Assembly: GCA_021805735.1 (NCBI GenBank)
Contig: JAJZEE010000012.1
Coordinates: forward strand, 1-52,088
Length of the DNA stretch: 52,088 nucleotides
Source: Bacillota bacterium
GTDB lineage: Bacteria; Bacillota; Bacilli; Alicyclobacillales; SLC66
Direction: 5' to 3'
This document shows, in pieces, positions 1 through 40,063 of this stretch (its first letter is position 1; each line of letters begins with the position of its first letter). The translations under genes and the position numbers were made by a program. The notes beneath the pieces are model-generated. The model was given only the letters and a program-made list of their open reading frames with translations, did not search any database and was not told the DNA's origin.

Positions 1-43
1 GATCTTTGATCCTGAAAAATGTTCCTGCTCTGAAAACGTGCGT

Positions 44-127
44 GCTCTGCCGGGATCGTATGCTGTTCCGCTGCTCAGACACGGCGCGCCGAACTCGCCT
101 CGGAACAGCATACGATCCCGGCAGAGC
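44..127. repeat. Long hairpin A (27-bp perfect stem, 30-nt loop)
   Basis: Positions 44-70 are the exact reverse complement of 101-127. The loop 71-100 begins CTGCTCAGACA, contains a small palindrome CGGCGCGCCG and ends GAACTCGCCT. The same loop, apart from a few bases, caps hairpin C at 257-322, while the outer stem there differs. Confidence 0.95.
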
Positions 128-163
128 GAGTCTTCCAGAATGGATAGAAATGACTCGCCTGGA

Positions 164-242
164 CGGATCATGCCTTGCGCTGCCGCGAGATTTGCGGCCT
201 TTAGGCTGCACCTGTTTGAGCGGCAGCGCAAGGCATGATCCG
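164..242. repeat. Long hairpin B (23-bp perfect stem, 33-nt loop)
   Basis: Positions 164-186 pair perfectly with 220-242. The loop 187-219 carries TGCGGCCTTTAGGCTGCA, an inner near-palindrome, followed by CCTGTTTGA. Read on the other strand this loop matches hairpin D at 13536-13628. The outer flank AATGACTCGCCTGGA at 149-163 also recurs beside hairpin D. Confidence 0.95.
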
Positions 243-256
243 TCGCTGCCAGCCAG

Positions 257-322
257 ATTCATATGCTGTGCCCCTGCTCAGACACGGCTACGCCGAACTC
301 GCGACGGGCACAGCATACGAAT
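257..322. repeat. Long hairpin C (17-bp stem, one mismatch)
   Basis: Positions 257-273 pair with 306-322 except at 261. The loop 274-305 is nearly that of hairpin A (CTGCTCAGACACGGC, then GCCGAACTCGC). Compared with A, stem bases next to the loop changed in both arms so that pairing is kept. Confidence 0.9.
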
Positions 323-378
323 CCTGACGCTGACGGGCGGGTTGGCCATCTCTGCGGTTGCGTTTCATTGGATCGCAT

Positions 379-2277
379 CTAGCGATTCAGAAGGCTGCCC
401 GTATACTGCAACAACTCATTGGCGCAACTCGCGCAATAGCCGTATTCCTCCATAAGCCGCCTGCTCACTTCGTTGATGCGCTTCAACTGATTGGTATCCG
501 GCGTCTTTGTCGATGTGGTGATCTTGACAACATCTTTTAGGTCCGCAAACAGTTTCTTCTCGATCGCCTCGCGCAGCCGTTCGTGAGAATGATAGTCGAA
601 CCGCTTTCCGCGCCTCGCATACGTCGAGATGCGAATGAGAATTTCTTCCCGAAACGCCTTTTTTGCATTCTCCGAAACACCGATCTGTTCTTCGATCGAC
701 CGCATCAATTTTTCATCGGGGTCCATTTCCTCGCCAGTGATCGGATCCTTCATACGCTGCCAGTTGCAGTACGCCTCGACATTGTCCAGATAGTTGTCGA
801 GCAGTGTCTTTGCCGACTCTTCATACGAGTAGACAAACGCCTTTTGCACTTCCTTTTTCGCCATGTCGTCGTACTCTTTACGGGCGATTGCCACAAAGTT
901 CAATAGACGTTCCCGATCTTCCTTGCTGATGGACGCGTGCTGATCGAGGCCGTCCTTGATGGCGCGCAAGACATCAAGCGCGTTAATGCAACTGGTGTCA
1001 CGCCGAATCAGCGCGCTTGAAATGCGGTTGATCACATACCGCGGATCGATGCCGCTCATGCCTTCATCGGGAGTTTCCGTTCGCAACTCCTGCACGTCTT
1101 TGTCCTTAAAGCCCTCGACGTTGCGTCCATCGTAAAGATACAGTTTCTTGAGCAGGTCCATGCCTTGCTTTTTGGACTCCTTAAGCCTCGTCAATACTGA
1201 GAAGACCGCCGCAGTCATGAGCGTGTGCGGAGCAATGTGGACATCGCACAGATCACTCTGCTGCACAAGCTTGTCGTAGATCTTGACTTCGTCTGAAACG
1301 CGCAGATTGTACGGAATCGGCATCACGATCATCCGTGACTGCAACGCCTCATTGCGCTTGTTACTGACAAATGTCCTGTACTCCGTTTCGTTGGTATGAG
1401 CGATGATCATTTCATCTGCAGAGATTAGCGCAAATCGACCGGCCTTAAAATTACCCTCCTGAGTCAGCGACAGCAAATTCCAGAGGAATTTTTCGTCACA
1501 TTTCAACATTTCCTGAAATTCCATCAGACCTCTGTTGGCCTTGTTCAACTCTCCATCAAAGCGATAGGCCCTTGGATCGCTTTCGGAACCATACTCCGAG
1601 ATCGTGGAGAAATCGATACTGCCAGTCAGATCGGCGATGTCCTGAGACTTCGGATCCGACGGACTGAATGTACCGATGCCAATGCGATCGTCTTCCGATA
1701 ACAGGATGCGTTCGACCGCGACATTCTCCATATGGCCGCCGTACTCACTCTGCAGTCTCATGCGGCAACTCGGACAGAGATTGCCATCGATGCGGACCCC
1801 AAGTTCTGAGGCCAACTCCGCCCGCAGCTCGGAAGGCACCAAATGCAGCGGTTCTTCATGCATTGGGCATCCCCTGATGCCATAGAGGGCGCCTTCGGGT
1901 GTGCGGGAGTATCGTTCAAGGCCCTGTTTGAGCAGCGTCACTATGGTGGATTTGCCGCCGCTGACCGGCCCCATGAGCAGTAAAATCCGTTTGCGCACAT
2001 CCAGACGTTTGGCGGCCGAGTGAAAGTACTCTTCGACCAGTCGCTCCAACGCCAGTTCGAGTCCAAATAACTCTCTGGAAAAGAAACGGTAGCGTTTGTG
2101 ACCACTCGCGTCCTCGTCGATGCCTGCAGACTCGATCATGCGAAAAACGCGCGAATGAGCTGTCTCCGCAATACTTGGTCGTTTACGCACCAGTTCAATG
2201 TAATCGACAAATGACCCGTTCCATGCCAGTTCCTCTTCCTTGGCCCGATAGGCGGCCAAGCGGTCCACAATGTCCAC
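379..2277 (-). CDS. prkA: PrkA family AAA+ serine protein kinase/ATPase
   Basis: Full-length PrkA (632 aa; the B. subtilis protein has 631). The N-terminal AAA_PrkA domain has a Walker A motif GPVSGGKST at residues 103-111. A possible metal-binding set follows (C137, H140, C168, C171), then the C-terminal PrkA kinase-like domain from about residue 370. In Bacillus PrkA sits on the sporulation inner coat and supports sporulation; it has been described both as a kinase and as an ATP-dependent protease. The GTG start is fixed by an AAGGGGGGAT site 7-8 nt upstream. It appears monocistronic, and no yhbH or spoVR follows; the hairpin cluster lies downstream instead. The family call is firm, the exact activity is not. 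Confidence 0.95.
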   Translation of the reverse strand: MDIVDRLAAYRAKEEELAWNGSFVDYIELVRKRPSIAETAHSRVFRMIESAGIDEDASGHKRYRFFSRELFGLELALERLVEEYFHSAAKRLDVRKRILLLMGPVSGGKSTIVTLLKQGLERYSRTPEGALYGIRGCPMHEEPLHLVPSELRAELASELGVRIDGNLCPSCRMRLQSEYGGHMENVAVERILLSEDDRIGIGTFSPSDPKSQDIADLTGSIDFSTISEYGSESDPRAYRFDGELNKANRGLMEFQEMLKCDEKFLWNLLSLTQEGNFKAGRFALISADEMIIAHTNETEYRTFVSNKRNEALQSRMIVMPIPYNLRVSDEVKIYDKLVQQSDLCDVHIAPHTLMTAAVFSVLTRLKESKKQGMDLLKKLYLYDGRNVEGFKDKDVQELRTETPDEGMSGIDPRYVINRISSALIRRDTSCINALDVLRAIKDGLDQHASISKEDRERLLNFVAIARKEYDDMAKKEVQKAFVYSYEESAKTLLDNYLDNVEAYCNWQRMKDPITGEEMDPDEKLMRSIEEQIGVSENAKKAFREEILIRISTYARRGKRFDYHSHERLREAIEKKLFADLKDVVKITTSTKTPDTNQLKRINEVSRRLMEEYGYCASCANELLQYTGSLLNR

Positions 2278-8829: not shown

Positions 8830-9216
8830 TCTTTCTGTAAGACATATCACTGTCTCCGTATTATCCGCGAGGTTCGTGGTGGTGACAAGCTTTGCCGCAA
8901 CACATATTTGTCCGCCTGATATTGGCATACTACATAGACATTGCGCCGCGGTGGAAGCCAACTGCGTCTCCCTGCCAATCCGCCGCAAACATTTTACCCG
9001 AAAGGAAGCGTGTGTCATTATCGTTGAAAAATTGTCTGAGTTGACACCTTCGGCATGCGTCGACTTCGCTGAACACGCGCGCGAACTTCATAAAACCGGA
9101 ATAGACTTTCATGCTGCTGTGCAGCACGAACTACCGGGAAGAAAAATACGCCTGCGGCGATTTTTCGGAATAAAGAGCCTCAGCGACAGCGCGGACGCTG
9201 CCAGGCACGGACGCTG
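8830..9216. other. 387-bp stretch without a supported gene
   Basis: It separates the leftward rnhA-queG operon from the rightward deacetylase gene. An open frame ends in a TGA overlapping the deacetylase ATG (TGATG at 9215-9219), but it has no normal start behind a ribosome site and no recognisable family. A compact hairpin at 9141-9166 is the only structure I can point to. Confidence 0.5.
9141..9166 (+). terminator. Compact hairpin with A-tract and T-tract
   Basis: GAAAAAT, then CGCC-TGC-GGCG, then ATTTTTC: a short GC stem extended by A/T pairs with one bulged base. The shape is that of a small bidirectional intrinsic terminator, but the GC stem is only 4 bp and it lies just 50 bp ahead of the deacetylase gene, so it may be fortuitous. 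Confidence 0.3.
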
Positions 9217-13489: not shown

Positions 13490-13536
13490 CCTGGAACATG
13501 CGCCTGCCCAGCACCTGGAATATGCACCTGCCCAGC
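13490..13536. repeat. Two tandem 23-24 bp units next to hairpin D
   Basis: Units 13490-13513 and 13514-13536 share CCTGGAAYATGCRCCTGCCC and differ at a few bases. The left arm of hairpin D continues directly from the second unit. An unpaired arm-like copy, CGGATCATGCATGGCAC, lies at 13469-13485. Confidence 0.85.
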
Positions 13537-13628
13537 CTGGATGGATCATGCATTGACACTGCCGCTCAAACAGGTGCGGCCTAAAGGCCGCAAAACTCGC
13601 TGCAGTGTCAATGCATGATCCATCCAGG
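13536..13628. repeat. Long hairpin D (27-bp perfect stem, 39-nt loop)
   Basis: Positions 13536-13562 are the exact reverse complement of 13602-13628. The loop 13563-13601 holds GCTCAAACAGGTGC, an inner palindrome GCGGCCTAAAGGCCGC and AAAACTCGC. Hairpin B at 164-242 has the same loop in reverse orientation. The flank after the stem (TGAGTCATTTT on the plus strand) also matches the flank of B. It lies 136 bp upstream of the gerA start. Confidence 0.95.
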
Positions 13629-39874: not shown

Positions 39875-39889
39875 TTCCCTATCTGCGCT

Positions 39890-39937
39890 CAGAAGCGAAC
39901 ACGCAGGACTGCATGCGGTCCTGCGTGTTCGCTTCTG
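39890..39937. terminator. Long perfect hairpin (20-bp stem, 8-nt loop)
   Basis: Positions 39890-39909 pair perfectly with 39918-39937 around TGCATGCG. It follows the secreted protein gene by 15 bp. There is no T-tract on either strand, so it may be a processing or stability element, or a repeat, rather than a classical terminator. Confidence 0.6.
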
Positions 39938-40063
39938 AAAATAGTTCCCTTGCCGTTCTAACACATTTTTGTCAAATAACTTTAATGCAATTTTGAGATT
40001 TCACGGTTATACTTGATCTTGCTATGAGGATTTCAATTCACATAATTGCATCAGGAGGCTACA

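Follow-up and report, generated by a model that had tools for sequence, protein, structure and literature searches.

A dispersed hairpin family of Bacillota with a near-constant internal loop and stems that change in both arms

The window, by which we mean the whole 52,088-nucleotide stretch of DNA analysed here, is contig C121 of a 3.76-Mb draft genome, G000, of a Bacillota bacterium. Three of its hairpins, A to C, lie past the 3' end of prkA, and a GerA spore germination protein gene is among the genes near hairpins. The features are as follows, with matches to the covariance model R1 given in bits.

44 to 127, plus strand: hairpin A, short-loop type A; arms 44-70 and 101-127, 27 bp, pairing perfect; loop at 73-98, plus strand, GCTCAGACACGGCGCGCCGAACTCGC; model match C121:52-120, 77.6 bits.
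151 to 255, minus strand: hairpin B, long-loop type; arms 151-186 and 220-255, 36 nt, 86% complementary; loop at 185-221, minus strand, GCTCAAACA...AAATCTCGC; model match C121:163-242, minus strand, 69.5 bits.
256 to 323, plus strand: hairpin C, short-loop type C; arms 256-273 and 306-323, 18 bp, 94% complementary; loop at 276-302, plus strand; model match C121:255-325, 83.6 bits.
379 to 2277, minus strand: prkA, with PrkA AAA and C-terminal kinase domains; a neighbour gene given for context, not part of the element.
9096 to 9170, minus strand, ends approximate and set by hand: solo unit, the outer module without a large hairpin, CCGAAAAATCGCCGCAGGCGTATTTTTC...GCAGCATGAAAGTCTATTCC.
13536 to 13628, plus strand: hairpin D, long-loop type; arms 13536-13565 and 13599-13628, 30 nt, 97% complementary; loop at 13564-13600, plus strand; model match C121:13542-13623, 65.3 bits.

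A sequence-only reading of the window had described A and C as sharing the loop CTGCTCAGACACGGC..GCCGAACTCGC on differing stems, which the sequence confirms, and the pairs it gave next to the loop, TTCCG/CGGAA in A and TGCCC/GGGCA in C, are exactly as claimed. B and D are indeed longer-loop versions, but the 3' loop strand of B, given as AACTCGC, reads ATCTCGC on the minus strand, and the span 44-322 assigned to all four holds A to C, with D 13 kb away at 13.5 kb. Among its outer 14 stem pairs, hairpin C has two A.C half-changes. The pattern GCTCARACAN{4,34}CTCGC matches four times in the window against 0.04 expected, a count that none of 100 shuffles reached. Separately, positions 39889-39938 form a 25-nt inverted repeat with zero spacer, 96% complementary.

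A loop pattern ending in AACTCGC matches 92 times in the whole of G000 (49 forward, 43 reverse; reversed control zero), and once in each of seven other genomes among 299 searched. Ending the pattern in ACTCGC and running it on 18 genomes of the family gave 95 matches in G000, 72 in G001, 131 in G002, 17 in G010, 8 in G005 and 0-3 in the remaining genomes, with 0-3 per genome for the reversed control. The covariance-model search suggested by the sequence-only reading likewise found the family genome-wide and in several genomes. Model R1, of length 72 and built from 34 copies, has at least 136 matches in G000 (150 of 2947 candidates scored) and 134 in the sister species G001 (150 of 2970 candidates scored), at least two of the latter being the opposite strand of a listed copy. 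In G000, 131 of the 136 score above 52 bits and five below 43 bits, and decayed copies are thus few among the 150 candidates scored. Bacillota MAGs with loop matches are, among the matches listed, JA1.bin52, DX2.bin20 and WH4.bin32; those of WH4.bin32 (G341) lie at the same contig coordinates as those of G005. Four loci of G005/WH4.bin32 (L087, L092, L096, L266) have a different outer flank, CTTTTTGAGCAAATTTGTG or relatives, on either side. At L059-L065, L072-L075, L077, L080, L082, L083 and L088 the loop matches and a stem is absent by eye; these matches are treated as chance. Gene placement used a simple ORF caller that drops ORFs centred on a copy, and put 35 of 134 classified copies between divergent genes. 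Three ORFs of at least 250 aa hold copies centrally; with ORFs from 70 aa, 66 of 105 copies overlap an ORF, a count later replaced by the stricter placement.

Covariation of the stems was measured on 34 distinct sequences. Paired cells make up 95.3%, against 74.0% after shuffling, and 164 cells have changed on both sides, against 48.8. Double changes occur at 17 of 20 pairs, that is, at 17 of the 18 outer pairs; of the others, one varies on one side and the two loop-closing GC pairs are invariant. The covariation score is 0.641, compared with 0.227 shuffled and at most 0.094 slid. The number of further pair types, a weaker measure, is 35 versus 31.4 shuffled and was reached by 23 of 500 shuffles. 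At stem pair 5/82, AU, CG, GC and UA all occur. With paired changes far above both the shuffled and the slid controls, what is kept is the fold rather than the stem sequence, as the sequence-only reading had supposed; stem changes are neither random nor unpaired, and the copies are not just four local duplicates. The R1 copies were chosen by their loop, which makes loop constancy within that alignment partly a matter of construction, and it was therefore measured on model matches instead. Both loop strands, CTCARACA and ACTCGC, are exact in 156 of 169 (116 of 126 places and 40 of 43), and the other 13 have a changed loop strand, mostly by one or two letters. The base preceding CTCARACA is often T in type A. 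Between the loop strands, the inner hairpin varies in both length and sequence.

The same loop occurs in gammaproteobacteria. It is found six times (control zero) in MAG SS_bin_65 (G339), the only one of 369 genomes of the class with the narrow loop pattern, and in further genomes of that family once in G709 and twice in G765. MAG 21_Jan_SF_Bin68 (G340) has two loop matches and two control matches, and rests on one copy, L272, the only one with a stem. Loop matches were present in three of 59 genomes of the order and four of 40 of the family; in G712 (L283) and G764 (L305) the loop matches and the stem is absent. The ten stem-bearing copies have stems mostly unlike those of Bacillota, and their distal stems are copy-specific: arms score 23.2 with their own partner and 14.7 when swapped between copies, and none of 90 swaps reaches the own-arm mean. 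A long distal stem of its own is seen at L271, L277, L279, L281, L282, L284, L306, L307 and L272. Beside the proximal stem, on the strand proposed below to fold, the ten hairpins read by eye GCAG (4), GGAG (3) or GGGG (3), and some GGATT/AATCC recall Bacillota type C, also by eye. ORFs next to these copies, recognised by eye and without taxonomy tools, include a DNA-3-methyladenine glycosylase, a citrate synthase and a methylisocitrate-lyase-like protein. As stems, inner hairpins and neighbouring ORFs all differ, contamination by this Bacillota lineage was rejected as the source. An ORF between two G339 hairpins, considered as a possible RAYT, is by eye the glycosylase.

In Bacillota the hairpins can belong to larger units. 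Flanks of 30 short-loop copies are partly conserved, with CCTGCCagCC upstream and TGACGAGCGGGtTTTtCATtCc downstream, and part of the copies have outer flanks with CGGAAAAT on one side and CATGnnnGTCTATCC on the other. The right-end motif matches 38 times against 105 hairpins in 1.03 Mb, and a solo form of ~69 bp occurs without the large hairpin. We compared 250 kb of G000 stretches, the window and shorter G000 loci with 725 kb of G001, the two having a median identity of 94.3% in blocks of at least 500 bases. This comparison of syntenic sites, also suggested by the sequence-only reading, yielded both occupied and unoccupied sites. L163 of G001 has ~155 bp more than L111, and L102:10983-11264 of G000 has ~155 bp more than L158; L106 and L178 differ by the presence or absence of a B-type copy; and L104 has a 69-bp solo unit between two CTATCC where L154 has a single CTATCC. 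At L104/L154 and L111/L163 the edge of the unit is CTATCC or CTGTCC, shared by the empty site, and from these two sites we infer that this motif could mark the unit edge. Such sites are compatible alike with insertion beside a target, target duplication and deletion. Orthologous sites were found for 22 of 64 queried. True absences are the second copy of L017 and L044, and the second copy of L105 has one arm left; among sites first scored empty, L024, L028, L029 and L071 hold a hairpin missed by the motif, and the first copy of L017 lies just outside the mapped gap. The earlier suggestion of a small mobile hairpin thus gains occupied and unoccupied orthologous sites, differences that are unpolarised as to insertion or deletion, and precise deletion between short direct repeats is a possible source of them. 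Since the solo unit, without the large hairpin, is polymorphic too, the large hairpin is not needed for that event.

Solo units of ~69 bp with two small hairpins and CTATCC-like ends are located at L104:2092-2276, L157:4769-4900 and window 9096-9170, and such units are once arranged in tandem; at the one in the window the sister species (L152) has an extra hairpin adjoining. Both arms of their second hairpin covary by eye (GGCGC/GCGCC, GCTGC/GCAGC, GCCGC/GCGGC). An alternative second hairpin, TTTTGCTTCGCAAAA inside TGAGATTTTGCTTCGCAAAACTCA, lies ahead of the right end at L106, L107, L158 (for example L158:11001), L175, L180 and L186. At L149, compared with L105:4361-4437, the second hairpin of the pair is down to one arm in the sister species, possibly a trace of deletion.

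The genus has Y1 transposase domains, two of them in G004 and one in G006, genomes without a loop match. At the 34 places covered by all 36 Y1 hits in five hairpin-bearing genomes, several hits being at contig ends where one flank is not visible, none has a hairpin on both sides of the Y1 gene; a hairpin loop lies near Y1 at five, on one side only, at about 0.14 to 5.6 kb. The nearest case, L298 (G002:C129:14500-18000), has a hairpin unit about 0.14-0.4 kb from the Y1 gene, on one side. A motif scan of the same 34 places found no paired unit ends around a Y1 gene; unit-end motifs are on one side at L298 and L167, a unit is several kb off at L301, and there are scattered single-motif matches. 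Non-autonomous IS200/IS605 derivatives, which are palindrome-associated elements, have hairpins near both ends, a short fixed edge motif and possibly a lagging-strand bias, and our units resemble them in these respects; unlike them, they enclose no checked Y1 gene and share no ends with an autonomous Y1 element. Rfam gave no match in the window, and permissive scans of window 1-400 and six gammaproteobacterial loci gave none at gathering score. Each of two patterns had zero matches in viral_contigs, and blastn of window 1-360 found no match in phages and plasmids. Literature searches covering Bacillus repeats, IS200 derivatives, REP hairpins and repeats with a conserved loop turned up related families and no name for this loop, and the papers listed as containing two of six loop strings are unrelated by their titles.

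In the portions of Di Nocera et al. 2013 (PMC3733652) drawn on here, REP/BIME repeats are 20-40 bp long, carry a GTAG or CGTC tag and have stems of 5-13 bp. Like our hairpins, they are dispersed palindromes occurring singly and in clusters with spacers, fall into subfamilies with alternative complementary stem bases, have some loops common between species and, in some, inner self-complementary loops. Unlike those described there, hairpins A-D span 68-105 nt, no constant tag was noted by eye in Bacillota, the internal loop recurs on other stems in another phylum, and an associated Y1 transposase was not found. The family consists of high-copy dispersed extragenic palindromes, as REPs do (136 and 134 model matches, simple ORF caller), whereas both A-D and the model, at 72, exceed the about 20-60 nt given in part of a 2011 account (PLoS Genet, PMC3116915), and at the 34 places no RAYT (Y1) gene is flanked by repeats. 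In the REPINs of that account, as far as it is drawn on here, two conserved REPs enclose a variable spacer hairpin; in our family conservation is inverted, the apical loop being fixed while the stem varies, and a RAYT link was not found. On grounds of length, flanked Y1 gene and conserved ends, we do not class the hairpin as a REP, although it may work like one. Cozzuto et al. 2008 (PMC2267715) reported 92 families of intergenic repeated stem-loops, many with a common predicted fold; by the part of that description used here they are similar, and may include this loop.

The reading to which we give about even weight is a REP/BIME-like non-autonomous mobile hairpin whose loop would be the recognition site of a putative trans-acting factor. 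One strand, 5'-GCGAGTT-inner hairpin-TGTYTGAGC-3', would fold when single-stranded, as a transcript or as lagging-strand template. The internal loop would then be recognised by the putative factor, most likely an enzyme excising or inserting the unit. With recognition carried by the loop, the stem would need only to pair, and so its sequence could drift through compensatory change, arm-to-arm copying and conversion between dispersed copies. That a protein recognises the loop is suggested by conservation, as seen with a model built from loop-selected copies.

Half-changed pairs and gene orientation together lead us to propose the complement, GCGAGTT...TGTYTGAGC, of the canonical strand (the loop as written, CTCARACA...ACTCGC) as the one that folds. 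Where a copy lies between two genes of the same direction, the canonical strand is antisense rather than sense to them 16:2 in G000, 28:7 in G001 and 12:3 in G002, with 2:2 in G010; none of the few classified copies of G005 and the gammaproteobacteria lies in a tandem gap. In convergent and divergent gaps it runs opposite the regional majority gene strand 42:21 in three genomes, whose tandem pairs against the majority strand show no trend (6:5), and transcription and replication strand are thus confounded. Half-changes on the canonical strand are A.C in 36 cases and G.T in 14 (outer 14 pairs, 120 distinct sequences); with even-handed scoring of 176 sequences they are 105 and 37, or 92 and 24 when flanked by paired bases. 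Neither orientation nor half-change counts are independent, copies being related and G000 and G001 of common ancestry. In gammaproteobacteria, from few copies, A.C and G.T stand at 11:3 flanked by pairs and 20:8 in all, or 7:1 by rows (p 0.07). These asymmetries point to folding of the complement, as RNA or lagging-strand DNA, and strand-biased C-to-T deamination could mimic that of the half-changes. Both other suggestions of the sequence-only reading, a structured RNA and a protein-binding DNA site, are compatible with them.

The same data bear on a structured RNA element, the rival that fares best though we think it rather unlikely, in which the hairpin, untranslated or intergenic, is selected in transcripts as a stabiliser, processing site or protein-binding site and mobility is incidental. 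It would account for the folded strand being in sense orientation to flanking tandem genes and for its half-changes in Bacillota, where G.U outnumbers A.C, as it also does in the few gammaproteobacterial copies; the 42:21 bias fits replication-strand DNA as well and the deamination just mentioned could yield identical half-changes. RNA folding energy is lower on the proposed folded strand in nine of ten gammaproteobacterial hairpins and equal in one; this test is weak, as a perfect type C stem differs by ~3 kcal/mol from the loop alone and the stemless L305 differs by 10 in the same direction. A kink-turn is a bulge next to tandem sheared G.A pairs, kinked in solution. On the folded strand, GA on either loop side adjoins the closing GC pair (GC-GA...GA-GC) and could give tandem G.A pairs in a kink-turn-like form. 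Against the RNA reading, no Rfam family reached gathering score in the scans given above.

Neutral upkeep, in which template switching and gene conversion keep the arms complementary without selection on the fold, draws on changes at the orthologous sites and seems improbable as the whole explanation. At five of the 22 sites G000 has type C where G001 has type A, orientation unchanged; at four of these the near flanks are partly common and the outer flanks well matched, and at the fifth, L003/L158, the entire unit differs. The L143/L172 cluster mixes types and was left out of this count. In 14 same-type pairs (224 stem pairs), three of them from the window locus and 99% identical, double changes number 6 against 0.8 expected and single changes 10 against 25.3, the expectation using an independent 6% change assumed from the median identity. 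One of the six double changes ends as T.G, and two are A-T to C-G transversions in a hairpin otherwise little changed (L035/L178, L028/L166). Such in-place changes fit selection on pairing, arm copying and conversion from another copy alike. The whole-type differences, the double transversions and the copy-specific yet complementary distal stems of gammaproteobacteria all suit neutral upkeep, and template switching, which the sequence-only reading had named as well, may contribute to the paired changes. What it leaves unexplained is a near-constant pair of loop strands on different stems in two phyla, and also the A.C/G.T asymmetry, because arm copying is strand-blind; the deficit of single changes speaks against it too, though arm correction could remove them as well.

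Intrinsic terminators, possibly bidirectional and carried on a mobile unit, are a very unlikely reading. Of 145 copies, 66 have TTTT after the hairpin within the scanned range when the canonical strand is read and 85 when the complement is read, and REPs are reported mostly downstream of coding regions in the part of PMC3733652 used. The orientation bias, however, is alike with a T-run (29:5) and without (27:7, both summed), by which terminator avoidance was rejected as its cause; no terminator-like site was called in window 1-500 by a scan restricted to loops of 3-8, and 35 of the 134 classified copies lie between divergent genes. That the four hairpins are local duplicates or chance palindromes, as the clustering of A-C within 300 bp might suggest, is ruled out for practical purposes by the 92 exact genome-wide loop matches with a control of zero, the covariation, the model matches, and the same loop with stems in other genera and another phylum.

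Returning to the mobile hairpin with a recognised loop, a broader form of it is tentative: what would define such a class of mobile hairpins is neither the ends nor the stem but a single internal loop (TCARACA/AACTC), which a putative protein in distant phyla would read single-stranded, the loop having moved onto, or grown, entirely different stems. As each gammaproteobacterial copy has a different distal stem, such an element would insert into existing palindromes or make its own by arm copying. In this family the fixed part, the loop, and the free part, the stem, are separate; the folding strand can be proposed from the sequence alone; and sister species supply occupied and unoccupied sites, which allows separate tests of recognition, of mobility and of arm correction. 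If the gammaproteobacterial loop is the same element, it would argue for a common factor or for transfer between phyla.
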